The notes under the pieces were generated by a model. The model did no database searches and had not been told where the DNA came from. It was given only the letters and a program-made list of their open reading frames with translations. Below are positions 2,485 through 36,417 of a DNA stretch of 41,034 bases, one piece after another; position 1 is the first letter of the stretch, and each line of letters opens with the position of its first letter. The translations under genes were made by a program, and so were the position numbers. The stretch covers positions 1 through 41,034 of the forward strand of contig SKVR01000020.1 of assembly GCA_007129355.1 (NCBI GenBank), read 5' to 3'. This stretch comes from Bacteroidales bacterium (GTDB taxonomy: Bacteria; Bacteroidota; Bacteroidia; Bacteroidales; UBA7960).

Positions 2485-3615
2485 ATGTCAGGGTTTTTAA
2501 TACATCTTAATTGTCTAAATAGCCAACTTGTGAAAATCAAACAAATTGCCGTCTGGTTATTGCCACTTTTACTCTTTTCAATAATATACCTGGCTTATCA
2601 GTACCTTACCTTCAGCTATTCCATATCAGCCCAAGGTATTGTTTACCCTTACCGTGAGTGGACACTTGCCAAAACATCGGACGGGAATCTGATCAATAGT
2701 TTGAGAAATAATTACAGCAACAGCATTACAAATTATACTGTTACAGAATTTCAGCGAGGCGATATGGCTGAATTTAGCATCAGGAATGAAATCTTCAAAA
2801 ATGCTTACATTGAAAAAGATGACACTATTGGTCTAATTAACTCAAGCAGTGAGTTCAGGCGTTTACTTGAACTTGAAGGCGAACTGAATTCTCAGCAAAT
2901 GCTTCTTGCCTTTTATGCAAGCGGCCAAAAACCCGAAGAAGTCCAGGTGGCCTATGATAAAATGATTCTTGCCCGACAACAATATGAAACCCAGGATAGA
3001 ATTAATCAACGTAATAAAATTCTTTTTGAAAGAGGTCATATCCCAGCTGAAGAATACGAAATATCTGAAAATGAATTCCTTGTTAGTTACCAGAACTACC
3101 TCATAGCCAGGAGTCAGCACGAGGCTCTGTTGAGTGGTGCCAAATCAGAACAACTGGATTATATAAGGGCAAACATCAATTCACTTGAGCAAAATATCGC
3201 GCATCTGAAAGGATTAATAGACGCTTTTACCATTACCAGCCCCATAAGCGGAAAGATAATCCGTAAACAGGGAATGAACTCTGAATTCGATGCCATTTTA
3301 AGAGTAGCAGACACAACCCGTTTTGTGGTAATTATACCGGTTGAATTATACAATATTCCCTACATAGAAATGGGGCAAATGATTGAGGTTATTTCACCAA
3401 TGGATGCAAGACCCATTCCTGCTACCGTTTTCAATTTTGATAGCAGTGTGCAGACGCTCAACCAACGACAGCATATTTTTGTAAGTGCCCTGGTAAATGC
3501 GCAGGATGCCACCGGAATATATCCTGACATGCGTGTGGATGCCAGAATTCCTTCAGGACCTATCAATCTGAATGATTACATAAGACGATTTATGAATGAA
3601 ATTTACAATAACTAA
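2485..3615 (+). CDS. HlyD/EmrA-like membrane-fusion (periplasmic adaptor) protein
   Basis: Single N-terminal TM (IAVWLLPLLLFSIIYLAYQYL), long coiled-coil centre (LLELEGELNSQQ...; NSLEQNIAHLKG), split lipoyl/barrel-sandwich half TITSPISGKIIRKQGMNSEFDAILRVADTTRFVVIIPV. The start could instead be the GTG at 2530. Confidence 0.75.
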   Translation: MSGFLIHLNCLNSQLVKIKQIAVWLLPLLLFSIIYLAYQYLTFSYSISAQGIVYPYREWTLAKTSDGNLINSLRNNYSNSITNYTVTEFQRGDMAEFSIRNEIFKNAYIEKDDTIGLINSSSEFRRLLELEGELNSQQMLLAFYASGQKPEEVQVAYDKMILARQQYETQDRINQRNKILFERGHIPAEEYEISENEFLVSYQNYLIARSQHEALLSGAKSEQLDYIRANINSLEQNIAHLKGLIDAFTITSPISGKIIRKQGMNSEFDAILRVADTTRFVVIIPVELYNIPYIEMGQMIEVISPMDARPIPATVFNFDSSVQTLNQRQHIFVSALVNAQDATGIYPDMRVDARIPSGPINLNDYIRRFMNEIYNN

Positions 3616-3618
3616 GAA

Positions 3619-4368
3619 ATGCTGAGGTATGAGCGTAAATATCTGGTTCCTTACGAAATTCTTGACCCCCTGAGATCAAGAATCAAACCTTTCGTGCGAC
3701 CCGATATTTATGCCAACGGAAATGGAAATGGGAATGGCTCTTTTTTGCCACAATACACGGTAAGAAGTATATATTTTGATACACATAATATGGAATGCCA
3801 TCAGGAAAAAACCGAGGGTGTTGAGTTAAGGAAAAAATTCAGAATACGCACATATAATGATTATTCTGAGGAAGCAGTAGCGGTTTTTGAAATTAAGAAA
3901 AAAATCGAAAACCGAATTCAGAAACACAGATCCTTTGCTGATTGGGAAGATGTTCCGAAATTAATGGAAACAGCTGATATTCAAAGATACATTCAGGCCG
4001 ATGAGTCTGGCCGAAGCATTGAAGATGCATCCAGATTTTTCTTTCATGTTTTGAAAAGAAATCTTAATCCAACAGTTTTAGTAGTTTATGAAAGAGAAGC
4101 CTATCATGGAGTTTTTGATTCGGGGGTAAGAATAACTTTCGATAAGAACATACGTAGTCTTATTTCCCCTAAATTGGCCGATATGTTTAAAAAACGTGAT
4201 TTAAAACAACTTTTCAGAAATCATTTTATTGTTGAGTTCAAATATTTTACCCCGGAAATGCCCACCTGGGCAAAATCACTGGTTGAAGAATTTAAACTGC
4301 GCCATCAGGCACTTTCAAAATATACCATTGGGTATGATGTTCACACCCAAAACAGCTTAACATATTAA
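3619..4368 (+). CDS. VTC-domain (polyphosphate polymerase-like) protein
   Basis: VTC signatures: RYERKYLV, VRSIYFDT, KKFRIRTYND, EIKKKIENRIQKHR, VVYEREAYHG...VRITFDKNIRS, IVEFKYFTPEMPTW, LSKYTIGYD. Confidence 0.88.
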   Translation: MLRYERKYLVPYEILDPLRSRIKPFVRPDIYANGNGNGNGSFLPQYTVRSIYFDTHNMECHQEKTEGVELRKKFRIRTYNDYSEEAVAVFEIKKKIENRIQKHRSFADWEDVPKLMETADIQRYIQADESGRSIEDASRFFFHVLKRNLNPTVLVVYEREAYHGVFDSGVRITFDKNIRSLISPKLADMFKKRDLKQLFRNHFIVEFKYFTPEMPTWAKSLVEEFKLRHQALSKYTIGYDVHTQNSLTY

Positions 4369-4372
4369 AAAT

Positions 4373-5050
4373 ATGGTTGAAGATTTTCAAAATATATTTG
4401 TTTTTAGCATAACAGCCAAGGATGTTATTGCCAATATAATGGTGGCCATGTGTTGTGGTATTTTTATTGCTCTGCTATATAAATACACTTACAAAGGGCT
4501 GAATTACTCATCTGCTTTTACCGTTTCGTTGATCATGCTTACGATGATAACAGCTGTTGTAATTATGGTAATCGGCAATAATCTTGCCCGTGCATTTGGC
4601 ATGGTTGGTGCCATGTCAATCATCCGTTTCCGCACCGCAGTGAAAGACGCATCGGATATTATGTTTATCTTTTTTGCCCTTTCCATAGGTCTTGCCGCCG
4701 GTGTTAAGCTATACTCCATTGCAATATTCGGCACATTATTTATCGGAATTGTTTACCTGATCGTATCGCAACTGAACTTTGCCCTGCCGCAGAAAAGAGA
4801 GTTTTTGTTACAGATCGTTGCAAGTGCAAATAATTTACCGGAAAATCCTTTTATGGAAACGCTCAATAAATATTGCCGGAAATCGAAACTGGTAAATGTT
4901 AAAACTATGGGAGAGCGCGACAATGAACAGATGGAATTCTCATATTACATCCATCTGAAAAATGAGCAAAAGGGACCCGATTTGATTTCGGATATTAAAG
5001 GAATCCAGTCGGTTATACAAACCAACCTCTTCTTTGATGAAACATCATAA
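4373..5050 (+). CDS. DUF4956 family membrane protein
   Basis: Multi-TM N-terminal half with NNLARAFGMVGAMSIIRFRTAVKDASDIMFIFFALSIGLAAG; cytosolic C-terminal domain. Directly follows the VTC gene. Confidence 0.85.
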   Translation: MVEDFQNIFVFSITAKDVIANIMVAMCCGIFIALLYKYTYKGLNYSSAFTVSLIMLTMITAVVIMVIGNNLARAFGMVGAMSIIRFRTAVKDASDIMFIFFALSIGLAAGVKLYSIAIFGTLFIGIVYLIVSQLNFALPQKREFLLQIVASANNLPENPFMETLNKYCRKSKLVNVKTMGERDNEQMEFSYYIHLKNEQKGPDLISDIKGIQSVIQTNLFFDETS

Positions 5051-5063
5051 CCCAATTACTGAA

Positions 5064-5084
5064 TGGTAAAAACTATTTTTACCA
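5064..5084. terminator. Probable bidirectional terminator hairpin between convergent genes
   Basis: Perfect inverted repeat TGGTAAAAA-CTA-TTTTTACCA (9-bp arms) in the 37-bp gap between DUF4956 (+) and the downstream minus-strand gene. Confidence 0.6.
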
Positions 5085-5087
5085 ATT

Positions 5088-5780
5088 TTAAAAATTCCCC
5101 TGAAGTTTTTCCCGAAGCTCATCGTAGGTGATGGGCTGATAGTCGCGGGTCACATAGAAGTTTCTTCCACCCACGAATAATCTTTTCCTTACAGAATTAG
5201 CTTCATAACGAATATTCAGAGGACCGACCCGCATTTCATACTCAAGCATGAGCCCGGAAATTTCATTGTAAGGAGTGTCAAAGTTAAAAGCATTGCCAGG
5301 AATTTCTTTGGTATACCAGATGTCGGACTCATAAACATCGCCATTTTCATCTACTACCTTTGCAATGACGTGATTACAGCTATATCCCAGGATTTCACGC
5401 GTTTGATCAGTATATTCAAATTCAGGCTGAGGCATATTACGTAACGCCGTTTGAATTTCCTGCGCTGAGCGAGTGACCACGTATTTTTCACGCATGATCT
5501 CAAGCATTGTAGATACTTCACCCGTATTACCATCAGAAATTTTCACCTGCGATAAGCCGGCATTTTCGGCACTCAGCTCAGTTCTAACCTGGTCATTTTT
5601 GGTTATAATTAATGCCTTTTCCGGCAATTCCTGTAACTCGGCAAGGTCAATATTACTTCCGGGGTAGGTGATGTTGTATGTAATTCGCCCGCGGAATGGC
5701 CTCTGGGCAGAAACAAATTCTGAAATCAGCAATATAATGGCCAGCAGAACAACTCCCGATAAGAACTTTCGTATATACAT
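5088..5780 (-). CDS. DUF4412/GLPGLI-like secreted protein of unknown function
   Basis: Signal peptide (FLSGVVLLAIILLISEFVSAQ), RGRITYNITYPG start, GYSCNHVIAKVVDENGDVYESDIWYTKEIPG. Confidence 0.6.
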   Translation of the reverse strand: MYIRKFLSGVVLLAIILLISEFVSAQRPFRGRITYNITYPGSNIDLAELQELPEKALIITKNDQVRTELSAENAGLSQVKISDGNTGEVSTMLEIMREKYVVTRSAQEIQTALRNMPQPEFEYTDQTREILGYSCNHVIAKVVDENGDVYESDIWYTKEIPGNAFNFDTPYNEISGLMLEYEMRVGPLNIRYEANSVRKRLFVGGRNFYVTRDYQPITYDELREKLQGNF

Positions 5781-5983
5781 AACAAGGCTTTTTAGTGTTT
5801 AAAAATATTATACGCTTTAACCAGCTTCAGGTTTCATCAGAATATAATTAATTTAACTCATTAGCTTTGTTGACCTCGCTTTTCAGGCTCAGTTGGCCGA
5901 GTGCCTGTCCCGCCTATGCGGGAGAACTTGCATGGTCTTAACATAATATCTTTTTTTTTGAGCGCCTGGTAATCATGCAAGAT

Positions 5984-7393
5984 TCAATAGCCCAAAGTTT
6001 TAAGCATTGATTTAAAGCTCTGTTCCTTGGCAAAAAGTTTAGTTGAGAACTCCCCTTCTTCATTGCGGTCTATGATCACCAGTTTGGGTGCAGGAATCAA
6101 ACAATGCTGCAGGCCTCCGAATCCACCAAGGCTTTCCTGGTAAGCACCTGTATGGAACATACCGATATACTGCTGAGCTCCTTCCGAAATTTTAGGCAAG
6201 AAAACAGCATTGGCATGTGATTCAGCATTGTAATAATCCTGACTATCACAGGTTAGTCCACCAAGGTTTACACGCTGGTATTCAGAATCCCAGTTGTTGA
6301 TGGCAAGTAAAATAAATCTTTGCTTCATGGCCCATATATCGGGCAGTGTGGTCATAAAACTACTATCGATCATATTCCATAACTCACGGTCATTCTGCTG
6401 TTTTTGGTCAAGGATAGAATAAAGAACGGCTCCACTTTCACCTACAGTAAAACCTCCAAATTCGGTAAAGATATCGGGCTCAGGCACTTTATTCTGCTTA
6501 CAAATACTTTTAATCTGGGCAATAATCTCTTCGGTCATATATTCATAATCGTACTCAAATCCCAGGGAGTTTTTAACCGGAAAACCACCTCCAATATTTA
6601 AAGAGTCCAGTTCAGGGCATATTTTCTTGAGATCGCAATAAACATTCACACATTTATGAAGCTCGTTCCAATAATAAGCTGTGTCTCTGATTCCTGTATT
6701 GATAAAGAAATGAAGCATCTTGAGCTCAAACCTGGGATTTTTTTTAATCTTTTCGAGATAGAAAGGAACCACATCATTGTACCTGATACCCAGTCTTGAT
6801 GTGTAGAACTCAAACATGGGTTCTTCCTCCGAAGCTATCCTGATGCCTAGTTTACATTTTTTATTTTTGTCTATCAATTGTTCGTAAGCATCAATTTCGC
6901 GTTTGTTGTCAACAACCGGAATAGTATTTTCAAATCCCTGGTTAATAAGATCAGATATCTTCTGGGTGTAAAGAGGTCTTTTGAAACCATTGCAAACAAT
7001 ATACTTGTCCTTATCAATCAAGCCGGTATTAAAAAGTTCTTCAATTATGTATATATCAAAACCCGACGAAGTTTCCAGGTGTATGTCATTCTTGAGAGCC
7101 TCTTCCAGAACAAATGAAAAATGTGAACTTTTGGTACAATAACAGTAATGATAGTCACCATCGTAATCAACCTTCGCCATTGCTACATGAAAAAGCCTTT
7201 TGGCTTTTTGTATCTGCTGACTTATTTTTGGCAGGTAGCTGATTTTAAGCGGTGTACCATACTGTTTTATGATATCCATAAGACAGATATCATGAAAATA
7301 GAGTTCATTATCAATTACCTTGAATTCTTCCTGCGGGAACTCGAAGGTTTGTTCTATCAGGTCCAGATATTTATTCTTCACAATATCAATCAA
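5984..7393 (-). CDS. speA: Arginine decarboxylase-like PLP enzyme (fold III, SpeA/LysA superfamily)
   Basis: YCTKSSHFSFVLEEAL (PLP lysine region), LNIGGGFPV, EFGGFTVGESGAVLYSILDQK, LGGLTCDSQDYY. Confidence 0.8.
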   Translation of the reverse strand: MIDIVKNKYLDLIEQTFEFPQEEFKVIDNELYFHDICLMDIIKQYGTPLKISYLPKISQQIQKAKRLFHVAMAKVDYDGDYHYCYCTKSSHFSFVLEEALKNDIHLETSSGFDIYIIEELFNTGLIDKDKYIVCNGFKRPLYTQKISDLINQGFENTIPVVDNKREIDAYEQLIDKNKKCKLGIRIASEEEPMFEFYTSRLGIRYNDVVPFYLEKIKKNPRFELKMLHFFINTGIRDTAYYWNELHKCVNVYCDLKKICPELDSLNIGGGFPVKNSLGFEYDYEYMTEEIIAQIKSICKQNKVPEPDIFTEFGGFTVGESGAVLYSILDQKQQNDRELWNMIDSSFMTTLPDIWAMKQRFILLAINNWDSEYQRVNLGGLTCDSQDYYNAESHANAVFLPKISEGAQQYIGMFHTGAYQESLGGFGGLQHCLIPAPKLVIIDRNEEGEFSTKLFAKEQSFKSMLKTLGY

Positions 7394-19249: not shown

Positions 19250-20125
19250 ATGGAAATCAACATTGATAAGGGTTCAGGATTTTGCTTCGGGGTTATCAAC
19301 GCTATAAAAGTTGCAGAGGAACAACTTGAACAGCATGGCAAACTTTTCTGTCTTGGAGATATTGTGCATAATAGCAAGGAAGTTGAAAGATTAAAAGCAA
19401 AAGGCTTAATTATTATTAATCATCAGGATTTCGAAAATCTTTACAATACCCGTTTACTTATCAGGGCGCATGGAGAACCACCCAAAACTTACAGCATAGC
19501 CAGAGAAAATCAAATCCAGTTGATTGATGCATCATGCCCTGTCGTTCTGAAACTTCAAAACAAGATCAAAAAGAGTTATGAAGAACTCAGCGAATTTGCC
19601 GGCCAGGTAGTGATTTTCGGGAAAGAAGGCCATGCCGAGGTAAACGGGCTTACAGGTCAAACCGGCAATAATGCCATAGTTGTGGGCTCCGGATTAGAAA
19701 ATCTTGACAAAATAGATTTCTCAAAGCCCATAACCCTTTTCAGTCAGACCACTCAGAATAAAGAGCAGTATGAGGATTTGATAAAGCTGATAAAGGAAAG
19801 AATGATGCAGAAAAATTGCAATCCGGATAAAAAACTGCAGGTTTCCAGATCTATTTGCGGACAGGTATCAAATCGGGGGCCCCATCTGGCTAAGTTTGCA
19901 AAAGACCATGACCTGATAATTTTTGTAAGCGGAAAAAAGAGCTCAAACGGAAAATATCTTTTTGATATTTGCCATCAAAACAACCCCAACTCCCGGTTTA
20001 TATCAGAAAAGGAAGAGCTAAGAAATGGGTGGTTTGATAATGTAATGAAGGTCGGTATATGTGGTGCCACTTCTACTCCGATGTGGCTGATGGAAGAAAT
20101 TGCTGTTGAGATCAGATCTTATTGA
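19250..20125 (+). CDS. ispH: 4-hydroxy-3-methylbut-2-enyl diphosphate reductase
   Basis: GFCFGVINAIKVAEEQL, LGDIVHNSKEVERL, RAHGEPP, DASCPVVLKLQ, SQTTQNKEQYEDL. Confidence 0.95.
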   Translation: MEINIDKGSGFCFGVINAIKVAEEQLEQHGKLFCLGDIVHNSKEVERLKAKGLIIINHQDFENLYNTRLLIRAHGEPPKTYSIARENQIQLIDASCPVVLKLQNKIKKSYEELSEFAGQVVIFGKEGHAEVNGLTGQTGNNAIVVGSGLENLDKIDFSKPITLFSQTTQNKEQYEDLIKLIKERMMQKNCNPDKKLQVSRSICGQVSNRGPHLAKFAKDHDLIIFVSGKKSSNGKYLFDICHQNNPNSRFISEKEELRNGWFDNVMKVGICGATSTPMWLMEEIAVEIRSY

Positions 20126-20139
20126 TAATTAATTGCAGT

Positions 20140-22497
20140 ATGACATTTGAAATACTACTTGTATTTTTTATCCTGTTAAGTGCTTTGGTTTTATTCCTTA
20201 CCGGATGGATGAGAATGGACCTGGTTGCTCTGTTAGTATTATCGACATTAACCATATCTGGCATTGTTTCACATACTGATGCACTCTCAGGCTTCAGCAA
20301 CCCTGCAGTAATAACGGTGTGGTCAATGTTTATTCTCAGTGCTGCTCTCTATCAGACCGGTGTGGCACGTATTATAAGCAGGCAATTATTATATCTTACC
20401 GGAAGCAGTGAATTGAAAATGATCACTGTAATAATGCTGACATCGGGTTTCTTTTCAGGATTCATTAACAATATCGGAGTAGCTACCCTTATGCTTCCGG
20501 TGGTAATGGACCTTGCCCGATCTACCGGCAAAGCCCCTTCACGGTTGCTGATTCCACTGGTTTTCGGTTGCCACCTCGGAGGTTTCACTACTTTAATCGG
20601 TACACCCCCAAATCTTTTGATAAGCTTTGCTTTGGAAAATGAAGGCTTAAATGCATTAAGACTATTTGATTTTACCCCCGTGGGGCTGGGAGTTTTAATC
20701 GGGGGAATACTTTTTATGGCATTTATTGGAAGACATTTGCTGCCACGGCGCGATACACTGCAAAAAATTGGCAATACAAGGAGCGATGAAATTCCGGTTT
20801 CCTATGCTTTAAATCAAAGAACTTTCAGTATAAAAATAAAACCTGCATCGCACCTCATAGGAAAAACTCTGGATGAAAGCCGGCTAAGGGCGGCATTGGG
20901 TCTCAATGTTCTTTCCATAAGACGCCAGGGCAATCTATTGCTTGACCCAGGGCCCGATACGCGAATTCAAACCAATGATACGCTCAATGTATTGGGAAGA
21001 CTGGATGACATTAAAACGCTCAAGAAATGGAATATCATTTTCCCGCAACAAGAGGATAAACCATACATCCGTAAACTGCTCCATGAAAAACTGGGGTTAT
21101 ACGAAGCAACCATACCTTCAGGCTCAGCATTATCAGGTAAAAACCTTCTGGAAAAAGATTTATTCTCCCCTCTCCAAATTGGTTTAATTTCTGTAAAATC
21201 ATCAGAAAAAATAAGGCGCTCAAGACTGAAAGAATATCGTTTTCAGGAATCTGAAATTCTATTATTACAGGGAGACCCATTGCAGCTGGAAAAGCTGGAA
21301 GCAAACGGAGACATTGAAAACATTTGCAAGATCAATTCCGAATTGCTTATCAGCGATTACAAACTTCACGATGTATTATTTGTGATGGAGATAGCCGATG
21401 ATGCTGAACCATTTAACAAGGAGAAAGCTGAAAATGAAACAGGCAATGCGCTTGGATTATATATTGTTGCTTCAATAAAGAAAGAGAATACATTACATCT
21501 GGTGGAACCCGGTGATACATTTGGTTCCGGCGACCAGCTTCTGGTGAAGTGTAATGTTAACGATCTGCCACTGGTAAAAGGGTTGAAAGACCTTGAAATT
21601 TTTTATGAGAATACAGAGACAAGCGACCTTGAATCAGATGAGATACAATTAACGGAAGTTGTGCTTGCACCACGATCCATCCTTGAAGGAAAAACGCTAA
21701 GAGAAGTAAACTTCCGGAATAAATATGGCCTTACAGTGCTGGCCATATGGCGCGAAGGTAAAGCACACCGGACCAATCTTCATAATATACCACTGCGCTT
21801 TGGAGAAGCTTTACTGCTTTATGGTAAAAGAGAAAAAATTGATCTGCTCAGCACTGATTCTGATTTGCTGGTTTTAACAGAAAGCAAACAAAGGCCTGTC
21901 CGACCCAGGAAAGCACTCATTTCTTTACTTATAATGATCGGGGTGCTGTTGCCGGTTGTTATAGGAATATTGCCTATTGCAATTTCCTCGGTACTTGGTG
22001 TTGTGGCAATGGTTCTGACCGGATGTATAAAAATGGAAGAAGCTTATCGGTCGGTTGAATGGCGCTCCGTTTTTTTAATTGCAGGATTACTACCTTTAGG
22101 AATAGCAATGCAGGAAACCGGAGCTGCAGCATTTCTCTCAGAAAAAGTGATAAATATTCTTGGGGCATGGGGTCCATGGGGAATTATCGTAGGGCTTTAC
22201 CTGGTAACTGCAATTTCCACACTTGCAATTCCCCCACCTGCACTTGTAGTTATTATGTCTCCCATTGTATTACAGGCAGCCGAAAGCTATGCTATTTCAC
22301 CCTACAGCATGATGATTGCTCTGGCCATTGCCGCCAGCGGCACATTCATGAGCCCTGTATCACATGCCGCCAATCTGCTGATTATGGGGCCGGGAGGATA
22401 TAAATTTACTGATTTTATGAGGGTTGGTGTTCCTCTTACAATTGTGGTGATGGTTATTGTTATGCTTCTGTTACCAATCTTTTGGCCTATTCAGTAA
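20140..22497 (+). CDS. SLC13-family permease with four internal RCK_C/TrkA-C-like modules (copy 1)
   Basis: ALSGFSNPAVITVWSMFILSAALYQTGVARII, NNIGVATLMLPVVMDLA, GTPPNLLISFAL, SPVSHAANLLIMGPGGYKFTDF. Four ~70-aa RCK_C-like units lie between the membrane halves. ATG at 20140 preferred over TTG at 20122. Confidence 0.88.
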   Translation: MTFEILLVFFILLSALVLFLTGWMRMDLVALLVLSTLTISGIVSHTDALSGFSNPAVITVWSMFILSAALYQTGVARIISRQLLYLTGSSELKMITVIMLTSGFFSGFINNIGVATLMLPVVMDLARSTGKAPSRLLIPLVFGCHLGGFTTLIGTPPNLLISFALENEGLNALRLFDFTPVGLGVLIGGILFMAFIGRHLLPRRDTLQKIGNTRSDEIPVSYALNQRTFSIKIKPASHLIGKTLDESRLRAALGLNVLSIRRQGNLLLDPGPDTRIQTNDTLNVLGRLDDIKTLKKWNIIFPQQEDKPYIRKLLHEKLGLYEATIPSGSALSGKNLLEKDLFSPLQIGLISVKSSEKIRRSRLKEYRFQESEILLLQGDPLQLEKLEANGDIENICKINSELLISDYKLHDVLFVMEIADDAEPFNKEKAENETGNALGLYIVASIKKENTLHLVEPGDTFGSGDQLLVKCNVNDLPLVKGLKDLEIFYENTETSDLESDEIQLTEVVLAPRSILEGKTLREVNFRNKYGLTVLAIWREGKAHRTNLHNIPLRFGEALLLYGKREKIDLLSTDSDLLVLTESKQRPVRPRKALISLLIMIGVLLPVVIGILPIAISSVLGVVAMVLTGCIKMEEAYRSVEWRSVFLIAGLLPLGIAMQETGAAAFLSEKVINILGAWGPWGIIVGLYLVTAISTLAIPPPALVVIMSPIVLQAAESYAISPYSMMIALAIAASGTFMSPVSHAANLLIMGPGGYKFTDFMRVGVPLTIVVMVIVMLLLPIFWPIQ

Positions 22498-34059: not shown

Positions 34060-36417
34060 ATGACACTGGAAGCACTTCTGGTTTTTTTTATTCTAATAGC
34101 TGCGCTGGTATTATTTTTTACCGGCTGGGTAAGAATGGATATTGTAGCACTGCTGGTTCTGGGCACACTTGGAATCAGCGGCTTGGTTTCACCTGCCGAG
34201 GCTCTTTCAGGCTTCAGCAATCCGGCTGTTGTAACCGTATGGGCCATGTTTATTCTGAGCGCGGCACTTTACCAGACAGGCGTTGCAAGAATTATCGGCC
34301 GCCAGGTTCTTAATCTTGCCGGAACCAGCGAATGGCGAATGATATTTGTTATTATGCTTACTTCGGGTTTGCTTTCGGCTGTTATGAATAACATTGGTGT
34401 GGCTGCTCTTATGCTTCCCGTGGTGATGGATATTGCGCGGTCTACCAACCGCGCACCCTCACGCCTGCTCATGCCGCTGGCATACGGTTGCTTGCTGGGA
34501 GGGCTTACAACTTTGATTGGAACACCCCCTAACCTGCTTGTAAGTTTTGCTTTGCAGGATGCCGGGCTGGAACCCTTTCAGCTTTTCGACTTTACTCCGG
34601 TGGGGATGGGTGTAATGCTGGGTGGAATCATTTTTATTTCGTTCATAGGGCGCCATTTTTTACCCGTTCGCGATGTGGCCAAAAACGGAATAAAAAAAGG
34701 CAAAAAAGCCTTACCGGCCTCCTATGAATTACAGGAGCGTACCTTTTTGATACGTGTAAAACCCGGTTCCATACTGGATGGGAAAACACTTGCTGAAAGT
34801 CGCCTGAGGGCAGCCCTGGGGATAAATGTGCTTTCGGTGAAAAGAGAAGGTGGCGGCGTAATTCTGGATCCCGGACCGGATACCCTAATCAGGGGAAAAG
34901 ACAAACTTTTCGTTCAGGGAAGATATGATGCAATCAACGCCCTTGGAGAATGGAAAATACTTCTACCAAAAGATACAGGTTTTGATCCTGAAGATCTGAA
35001 ATTATCCGACCTGAGTTTTTTTGAAGTAACTATCGGAGAAAAATCTTCACTTATTGGGCAGTGTCCTGAAAATAAACGCCTGCATAAACAGCTAAATGTA
35101 AATATTCTGGCTTTAAAACGCGATAAAGTCATTTGGGGGCAAGTTCTTAAAAAAGAAACCCTTCAATCAGGAGATGTTTTATTATTACATGGTTTAGACA
35201 AAAAAATCAAGGCTCACGGAGAAGATGGTATGTTTGAAAAGATTTCGCAAATTCAAACTAAGGAACTTCTCAAAACTTACCGTCTTCAGGAAGCGCTGTT
35301 CTTAATGGAGATCAATGAAGATTCAGAACTCTTCGGAAGCGCAGTTGCTGACACACAACTGGGTGATGCATTCGGACTCAATGTTCTGGGAATCATAAGG
35401 AAAGGAGAGAAAATACTTATGCCCAAACCCGGCGAAAAGTTTCTGCCCGGAGACCGTTTGCTTGTGCAGGGAAACATCAAAGATCTGCCTTTACTGCAAG
35501 GTCTTATGGATATAGAACTACCTGAAGAAAAGGCACCTGCTACCCAAAGCCTGGAATCTGCTGAGATTCAAATGGCAGAGGTGGTTCTGGCACCTCGCTC
35601 ACTACTTGCCGGAAAAACCCTCCGCGAAATCAACTTCCGGAAAAAATATGGAGTTACAGTATTAGCCATATGGCGCGAAGGGCGTGCATATCGCACAAAT
35701 CTGCATAATTTACCCCTTCGTTTTGGAGAAGCCCTTTTACTCTATGGAAAACGCGACAAGCTGGAGTTAATGGGAAATGACAGTGATTTTATTCTTCTCA
35801 CTGATACCATGAGCCAGACTTTCAGAACCCATAAAGCTTTAACTGCAACACTTATCATGCTGGGAATTTTGATTCCGGTTCTGGCCGGGCTGGTGCCTCT
35901 GGCCCTTTCGGCCATCATTGGTATTGCCCTGATGGTTCTTACAGGATGTCTTAAAATGGAAGAGGCCTACAGGGCCATTGAATGGCGTTCGGTTTTTCTT
36001 ATTGCAGGTCTTCTCCCCCTGGGTTTTGCCATGCAGCAAACCGGCGCTGCGGCTATGATGGCCGAACAAGTAGTTGAGATTTTCGGCAGGTTTGGCCCGT
36101 GGGGTGTAATTGCCGGACTATACCTGCTTACATTAATTTCCACACTTGCCATCCCACCTGCCGCTCTGGTGGTTATCATGTCGCCGGTGGCATTGCAGGC
36201 TGCTGCGAGTTTCGATGTATCGCCATACTCCATTATGATGGCCATTTCCATTGCAGCTGCGGCCAGCTTTCTGAGCCCGATATCACATCCGGCAAATCTC
36301 CTTGTTATGGGTCCGGGAGGTTATAAATTCACTGATTTTCTGAAACTGGGCTTACCCCTTTCCCTTGTGGTTATGGCCGTGGTAATGATTCTTTTGCCCA
36401 TTTTCTGGCCTCTGTAA
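34060..36417 (+). CDS. SLC13-family permease with four internal RCK_C/TrkA-C-like modules (copy 2)
   Basis: Same architecture and near-identical signatures as 20140-22497 (ALSGFSNPAVVTVWAMFILSAALYQTGVARII; GTPPNLLVSFAL; SPISHPANLLVMGPGGYKFTDF). Confidence 0.88.
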   Translation: MTLEALLVFFILIAALVLFFTGWVRMDIVALLVLGTLGISGLVSPAEALSGFSNPAVVTVWAMFILSAALYQTGVARIIGRQVLNLAGTSEWRMIFVIMLTSGLLSAVMNNIGVAALMLPVVMDIARSTNRAPSRLLMPLAYGCLLGGLTTLIGTPPNLLVSFALQDAGLEPFQLFDFTPVGMGVMLGGIIFISFIGRHFLPVRDVAKNGIKKGKKALPASYELQERTFLIRVKPGSILDGKTLAESRLRAALGINVLSVKREGGGVILDPGPDTLIRGKDKLFVQGRYDAINALGEWKILLPKDTGFDPEDLKLSDLSFFEVTIGEKSSLIGQCPENKRLHKQLNVNILALKRDKVIWGQVLKKETLQSGDVLLLHGLDKKIKAHGEDGMFEKISQIQTKELLKTYRLQEALFLMEINEDSELFGSAVADTQLGDAFGLNVLGIIRKGEKILMPKPGEKFLPGDRLLVQGNIKDLPLLQGLMDIELPEEKAPATQSLESAEIQMAEVVLAPRSLLAGKTLREINFRKKYGVTVLAIWREGRAYRTNLHNLPLRFGEALLLYGKRDKLELMGNDSDFILLTDTMSQTFRTHKALTATLIMLGILIPVLAGLVPLALSAIIGIALMVLTGCLKMEEAYRAIEWRSVFLIAGLLPLGFAMQQTGAAAMMAEQVVEIFGRFGPWGVIAGLYLLTLISTLAIPPAALVVIMSPVALQAAASFDVSPYSIMMAISIAAAASFLSPISHPANLLVMGPGGYKFTDFLKLGLPLSLVVMAVVMILLPIFWPL

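Follow-up and report, generated by a model that had tools for sequence, protein, structure and literature searches.

A conserved adaptor–VTC–DUF4956 gene unit in Bacteroidales and other bacteria: a candidate pump-less export system for a phosphate polymer

INTRODUCTION

Bacterial polyphosphate (polyP) is usually regarded as being made in the cytosol by PPK. In yeast, the VTC complex (Vtc1/Vtc3/Vtc4) has a membrane pore in the form of a channel lined by basic residues, and the triple change R264A/R266A/E426N in Vtc4 has been used to inactivate the enzyme (PMC9911596). In bacteria, VTC and DUF4956 genes adjoining a CotH gene have been published for Gram-positive pel clusters (PMC7112168). There the VTC–DUF4956–CotH set adjoins the genes for the exopolysaccharide Pel, and DUF4956 and CotH, but not VTC, affect Pel level (PMC12345266); in Streptococcus intermedius, deletion of VTC gave no aggregation phenotype, whereas deletions of DUF4956 and CotH had one, and the streptococcal DUF4956 homologue has also been likened to MgtC (PMC12345266). 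In TolC-dependent exporters, the RxxxLxxxxxxS motif of the adaptor hairpin tip contacts TolC (PMC3391258).

The locus described here, a run of three genes encoding a membrane-fusion protein (MFP, the adaptor), a VTC protein and a DUF4956 protein, shares features with each of these systems. It shares with the yeast complex a polymerase domain and its catalytic residues, the polymerase presumably being coupled to a membrane channel bearing basic residues such that polyP would leave the cytosol; unlike the yeast complex it lacks the SPX regulatory domain and the DUF202/Vtc1 membrane part (no Pfam match to either in the three proteins), its membrane partner is the unrelated DUF4956, and it adds a periplasmic adaptor (and TolC) for a second membrane. 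With the Gram-positive CotH–VTC–DUF4956(–DUF4832) pel set (PMC7112168, PMC12345266) it shares the adjacency of VTC and DUF4956, an arrangement that the first-pass annotation of this DNA had rightly given as known from bacteria, and CotH as a recurrent partner; that set, however, belongs to single-membrane cells and has no adaptor or TolC, whereas the DNA analysed here has no pel locus or CotH, CotH being linked only in some relatives. The MacAB–TolC and EmrAB–TolC exporters and type I secretion systems have in common with it the adaptor fold, the TolC-docking tip and, in relatives, a linked TolC-type gene, but here a polymerase and DUF4956 take the place of the ABC, MFS or RND pump. DUF4956 itself has weak sequence similarity to the MgtC/SapB family and an ACT-like C-terminal domain, yet it falls under both curated cut-offs for that family, and we know of no MgtC in a comparable operon context.

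RESULTS

Organization of the locus

The window, meaning the whole stretch of DNA analysed, comprises 41,034 nucleotides of contig SKVR01000020.1 from a Bacteroidales bacterium. The features under study are as follows.

2485..3615, + strand: adaptor (MFP) gene, from the ORF call; HlyD/MacA fold
3619..4368, + strand: VTC gene; VTC-domain (CYTH/TTM tunnel) polyphosphate polymerase, as assigned by Pfam and residues
4373..5050, + strand: DUF4956 gene; membrane protein, Pfam PF16316
5064..5084, + strand: A/T-rich hairpin of 9 bp, 3' of the DUF4956 gene

The three genes are all on the + strand with intergenic gaps of 3 and 4 bp, in agreement with the tightly spaced run first described. For the adaptor, GTG 2530 (VKIKQIAVW..., 361 aa) is a more likely start than ATG 2485, because five close relatives begin at exactly that residue. 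The run had been thought to be closed by a terminator at 5064–5084; the hairpin exists, but it is A/T-rich and weak (-6.9 kcal/mol, z -2.25), and termination is unproven since it has no clean T tract and is missing from the terminator scan. It is possible that it acts as a weak terminator, perhaps bidirectional, against the convergent gene at 5088–5780. As had been claimed, inspection of the window's ORFs showed neither an outer-membrane channel nor an ABC, MFS or RND pump.

Other genes of the window were assigned partly by eye. At the contig end, positions 1–719 appear to hold a truncated fusion of cytochrome oxidase subunit II with a cytochrome c domain; a haem O synthase-like gene (712–1587) comes next. 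Positions 1705–2280 encode a MerT/MerP-like fusion of a membrane segment and a heavy-metal-associated domain, below the MerTP cut-off, and 5984–7393 on the - strand a short arginine-decarboxylase-like PLP enzyme, far under the speA and lysA cut-offs. Two paralogous large transporters, of SLC13 type and with TrkA-C-like internal domains by eye, lie ~12–14 kb apart at 20122–22497 and 34060–36417.

The adaptor

The adaptor matches Pfam HlyD_D23 at 2e-5, under the cut-off, as is also the case with the DevB/CzcB-type adaptor models. Its predicted structure (pLDDT 83.8) has one N-terminal TM segment, a split lipoyl domain, long helical hairpins, a beta-barrel and a C-terminal helix, and in a Foldseek search of the PDB the top match was MacA (8e-15), then EmrA and AcrA. 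On the basis of this model the adaptor is a diverged HlyD/MacA-type membrane-fusion protein, and the earlier description of it as HlyD/EmrA-like agrees with the predicted fold. Residues 176–187 (376-aa numbering) correspond to a TolC-docking tip of the RxxxLxxxxxxS type. Across the adaptor family the R is found in 104/104 sequences and the L in 96/104, while the third position is S in 71, A in 19 and P in 11; the adaptor of the window keeps R and L and has P where most relatives have S. Competence of the adaptor for docking to TolC is thus supported, as far as the conserved motif can predict it.

The VTC protein

Residues 3–240 of the VTC protein match PF09359 (E=4.6e-37; 128 bits against a cut-off of 23), and a profile of 13 adaptor-linked VTCs retrieved Vtc4 structures from the PDB at 2.5e-14, the match being specific to Vtc4/Vtc2/Vtc3. 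By alignment, K7, R75, R77, K93 and K102 of the window protein correspond to K200, R264, R266, K281 and K294 of Vtc4, and Y157, R159 and R171 to Y359, R361 and R373; for E206 and K234 (in an SKY motif), motif and spacing alone point to E426 and K458 as the counterparts. The eight aligned residues are invariant in adaptor-linked VTCs and, except for Y157, nearly fixed in 79 VTCs of the order. Beyond R264, R266 and E426, we take the remaining aligned residues to be catalytic in Vtc4 as well. The basic and acidic motifs of the polymerase fold are therefore retained as first noted, the tunnel residues by alignment and the counterparts of E426 and K458 by spacing, and the substitution of catalytic residues that would have spoken against a polymerase was not found. 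Residue conservation supports the prediction that the protein is catalytically competent for polyP synthesis. The genome of the window also encodes a separate PPK1, and therefore storage polyP does not need the MFP–VTC–DUF4956 set.

The DUF4956 protein

The third protein matches PF16316 above the cut-off (E=8.2e-16), and its model, of medium confidence (pLDDT 74, pTM 0.52), has about 4–5 hydrophobic helices ahead of an ACT/ferredoxin-like domain at the C-terminus, in keeping with its earlier designation as a multi-TM protein. Among 207 DUF4956 sequences R87 is invariant and R85 is present in 206, within an IIRFRT motif where a membrane helix ends; these arginines may be comparable, by analogy, to the basic residues that line the yeast VTC channel. 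No pore was present in the DUF4956 model. A DUF4956 profile found no match among PDB sequences, and in a fold search the matches were confined to the ACT-like region at the C-terminus. Scores against MgtC were 17.9 bits with Pfam (cut-off 31.4) and 37.7 with NCBIfam (cut-off 214), a weak, below-cut-off indication that DUF4956 may be a distant MgtC/SapB relative.

Conservation of the gene unit

Adjacency was assessed with the adaptor itself as the query, so that linkage to DUF4956 or VTC was not built into the statistic. Among 149 genomes of the order, all 13 full-length matches (E=4e-248 for the window itself and 4e-30 for the weakest, with the next match at 5e-9) lie directly upstream of VTC, in MFP–VTC–DUF4956 neighbourhoods whose genes share a strand and are separated by short gaps or overlap slightly. 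A profile from 12 adaptors, run against 395 genomes of the phylum with its own genome excluded, gave 25 strong loci (E<1e-40), 24 of which are MFP–VTC–DUF4956. The 25th (L142, genome G314, 3935–7200) is MFP–DUF4956–OEP, in a genome where a VTC match is absent. Full-length members of this first adaptor family that lacked an adjoining DUF4956 were not found. The possibility that the adaptor is a random neighbour, raised at the outset as one of three ways in which the proposal might fail, is ruled out by these searches, and MFP–VTC–DUF4956 is a widely conserved bacterial gene unit. The same triad is present in KSB1 (L259), Neomarinimicrobiota (L262, L264) and Latescibacterota (L265), and a Caldithrix contig (L249) starts inside VTC; these come from scanning GTDB species contigs with DUF4956 as the anchor, a set that is biased towards DUF4956 and was kept out of the adjacency statistic, and because several of its loci duplicate order loci the counts are not additive.

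A second arrangement, VTC–DUF4956–MFP, occurs in 13 loci (L170–L181, L183), and one further locus (L182) reads CotH–DUF4956–MFP–OEP–VTC–CotH. The gene 3' of DUF4956 in the second arrangement is of adaptor size (361–376 aa), is HlyD-type by Pfam in the three scanned (L173, L178, L182), and has the RxxxLxxxxxxS tip in most members. Against the first adaptor profile this lineage scores 20–30 bits or nothing, and it looks like a separate recruitment because many generic adaptors score higher. A tree of 146 VTC sequences groups the 61 whose adaptor lies upstream in one clade (support 0.81) and the 13 of the VTC–DUF4956–MFP arrangement in another (support 0.81), and both adaptor-linked clades together with L031 are split from the 71 other VTCs with support of 0.93. 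Within the order, VTC–DUF4956 more often occurs without an adaptor (67/80 loci). Tree distances of the three proteins correlate at 0.88 each, a value that, lacking a species-tree control, we do not count as evidence of interaction.

Two other candidates were set aside. An apparent adaptor–VTC gene fusion at L168 (a 778-aa VTC ORF) was treated as an overlapping open frame, the adaptor match starting in another frame, and a HlyD gene two genes from VTC at L050, beside a 1123-aa protein of RND size, was taken as part of an unrelated pump operon. Alkaliphiles, or metagenomes that are probably from soda lakes, account for many of the closest loci (within L190–L269: Alkalitalea, Natronoflexus, Alkaliflexus, Belliella buryatensis, Lunatimonas lonarensis and CSSed/T3Sed bins), which may reflect sampling or ecology.

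Neighbouring genes

A TolC-type gene, recognized by Pfam OEP or by a profile from two such genes, comes after DUF4956 in eight loci; it follows directly in L090/L222, L094/L207, L239, L251, L253, L256 and L142, and in L215 lies 156 bp from DUF4956. Linked outer-membrane factor genes are missing from most adaptor loci, and the genome of the window has several unlinked TolC-type genes and none linked within the window. No ABC, MFS or RND pump family was present among the 25 most frequent of 51 Pfam families for the relatives (38 close same-strand neighbours), and the alternative that an ABC transporter is the conserved partner elsewhere accordingly found no counterpart among the families listed beside the relatives' triads. 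Nor, among these 25 families, did any glycosyltransferase or common substrate gene recur beside the triad.

Several secreted or envelope proteins were seen in these neighbourhoods. DUF2490, a secreted, probably outer-membrane, beta-rich family, often comes after adaptor-less VTC–DUF4956 pairs (34 loci, e.g. L033, L042, L054, L096 and L101); 12/34 end in F, and it is perhaps an alternative outer-membrane partner. Beta-propellers predicted to be secreted or lipoproteins recur beside DUF4956, with SdiA-regulated/phytase-like Pfam matches in L249, L082, L149, L151 and L155 and a second, related-looking group in L239, L250, L252–L256 and L266. Arylsulfotransferase-like (ASST) proteins are found near some adaptor–VTC loci (L083:3398–5197, L090:11902–13623), with nine in the order set.

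No CotH kinase gene was found within the window, and its genome has four CotH matches elsewhere. CotH is encoded in each of the 13 genomes of the order that have the adaptor; it lies in the neighbourhood of the adaptor locus in 4/13 cases in the order and at least 10/29 in the phylum. VTC and CotH co-occur across the 149 genomes (63/11/30/45; odds ratio 8.6, p=1e-8, with relatedness uncorrected). Nine CotH proteins were scanned for a type IX secretion C-terminal signal, with matches, some of them weak, in three from the window's genome and in those of L226, L242, L222 and L146; because of these matches, the signal-bearing CotH proteins are predicted to act outside the cell.

DISCUSSION

Our working hypothesis, to which we give a slightly better than even chance, is that MFP–VTC–DUF4956 (with TolC) is devoted to exporting a phosphate polymer across the whole envelope without a pump. 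VTC would sit on the cytoplasmic side of the inner membrane and polymerize phosphate from a nucleotide, a step that we infer because the Vtc4 catalytic residues are intact. The chain would then thread through the membrane domain in which DUF4956 carries its arginines, and DUF4956 would stand in both for an ABC, MFS or RND pump and for the yeast Vtc1/DUF202 channel. The adaptor would dock on DUF4956 and reach across the periplasm to an outer-membrane factor of TolC type, whose gene lies next to the unit in some relatives and elsewhere in the genome of the window. An adaptor–DUF4956–TolC set that lacks VTC, as in one genome, is what would be expected if DUF4956 is the inner-membrane partner. The first-pass annotation had already suggested that DUF4956 replaces the pump while VTC makes or loads a polymer that the adaptor carries across the periplasm; the conserved unit, the retained residues and the absence of a linked pump from the window uphold that proposal, but only in part, because polymer synthesis, its passage through DUF4956 and its export, and with them the product, path and direction, are what we infer. 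Against the export reading, MgtC relatives are regulators and not known channels, and the window has no linked outer-membrane factor and an adaptor tip with P, not S.

The main doubts about polymer export come from the VTC-less locus L142 and the S. intermedius deletions, and on these grounds the DUF4956–adaptor pair may handle a substrate other than the VTC product. It is thus conceivable, if rather unlikely, that DUF4956, adaptor and TolC export an exopolymer or secreted factor, with VTC phosphorylating, priming or regulating it and DUF4956 acting as an MgtC-like regulator or transporter. The weak MgtC similarity is in line with this idea, as is the Gram-positive set beside the Pel genes, where DUF4956 and CotH, not VTC, influence Pel level and aggregation; yet a VTC with all catalytic residues is present in nearly every adaptor locus, and no glycosyltransferase or common substrate gene recurs among the families listed. 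Alternatively, VTC–DUF4956 might move polyP only into the periplasm, as a store, metal buffer or chaperone, with the adaptor serving as scaffold or gate. The abundance of adaptor-less pairs in the order (67/80 loci) and the lack of a linked outer-membrane factor at most adaptor loci would suit such a role, which we nevertheless regard as unlikely, for the adaptor keeps its TolC-contacting tip, and TolC genes are repeatedly linked, once with the second adaptor lineage.

CYTH/TTM enzymes include triphosphatases, and the SPX and DUF202 parts of the yeast proteins are missing here, so that VTC could be a phosphohydrolase or signalling enzyme rather than a polymerase; the specificity of the profile match for Vtc4/Vtc2/Vtc3 (E=2.5e-14) and the retained polymerase tunnel residues make this very improbable. 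Adaptors usually partner ABC, MFS or RND pumps, and with several TolC-type proteins in the genome of the window the adaptor might be thought to serve an unlinked pump, its position beside VTC–DUF4956 being incidental. That explanation is nearly refuted by the near-perfect adjacency, the two adaptor lineages, the two gene orders and the separate VTC clade; an ordinary HlyD protein with an unlinked pump was likewise rejected, as no pump recurs among the families listed and no full-length family member lacking an adjoining DUF4956 was found.

If the export hypothesis is followed outside the cell, one may speculate further that type IX-secreted extracellular CotH kinases use or anchor the exported polymer. 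The predicted extracellular action of CotH leads to this speculative reading, in which the polymer would be a phosphate source or a scaffold for CotH. In its most explicit version, which we consider distinctly doubtful, synthesis by VTC would drive polyP via DUF4956, the adaptor and TolC to the surface, where the secreted CotH kinases would use polyP, not ATP, as donor in phosphorylating matrix or extracellular proteins. If true, this would account for how a kinase can work extracellularly, and for the recurrent association of CotH, VTC and DUF4956 in bacteria with one membrane as well as two.

In the literature searched, which took in few subscription journals or preprints, we found no VTC described as coupled to an adaptor or to TolC; within those limits, the coupling to adaptor and TolC is new here, and VTC–DUF4956 beside CotH in Gram-positives was already known. 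The placement of polyP outside the cell by bacteria lacks an explanation, and the triad is a specific, conserved candidate for a machine that would act across both membranes. It also gives a candidate role to DUF4956, an almost unstudied family, and, if CotH draws on the exported polymer, would address the phosphate source of extracellular bacterial kinases.
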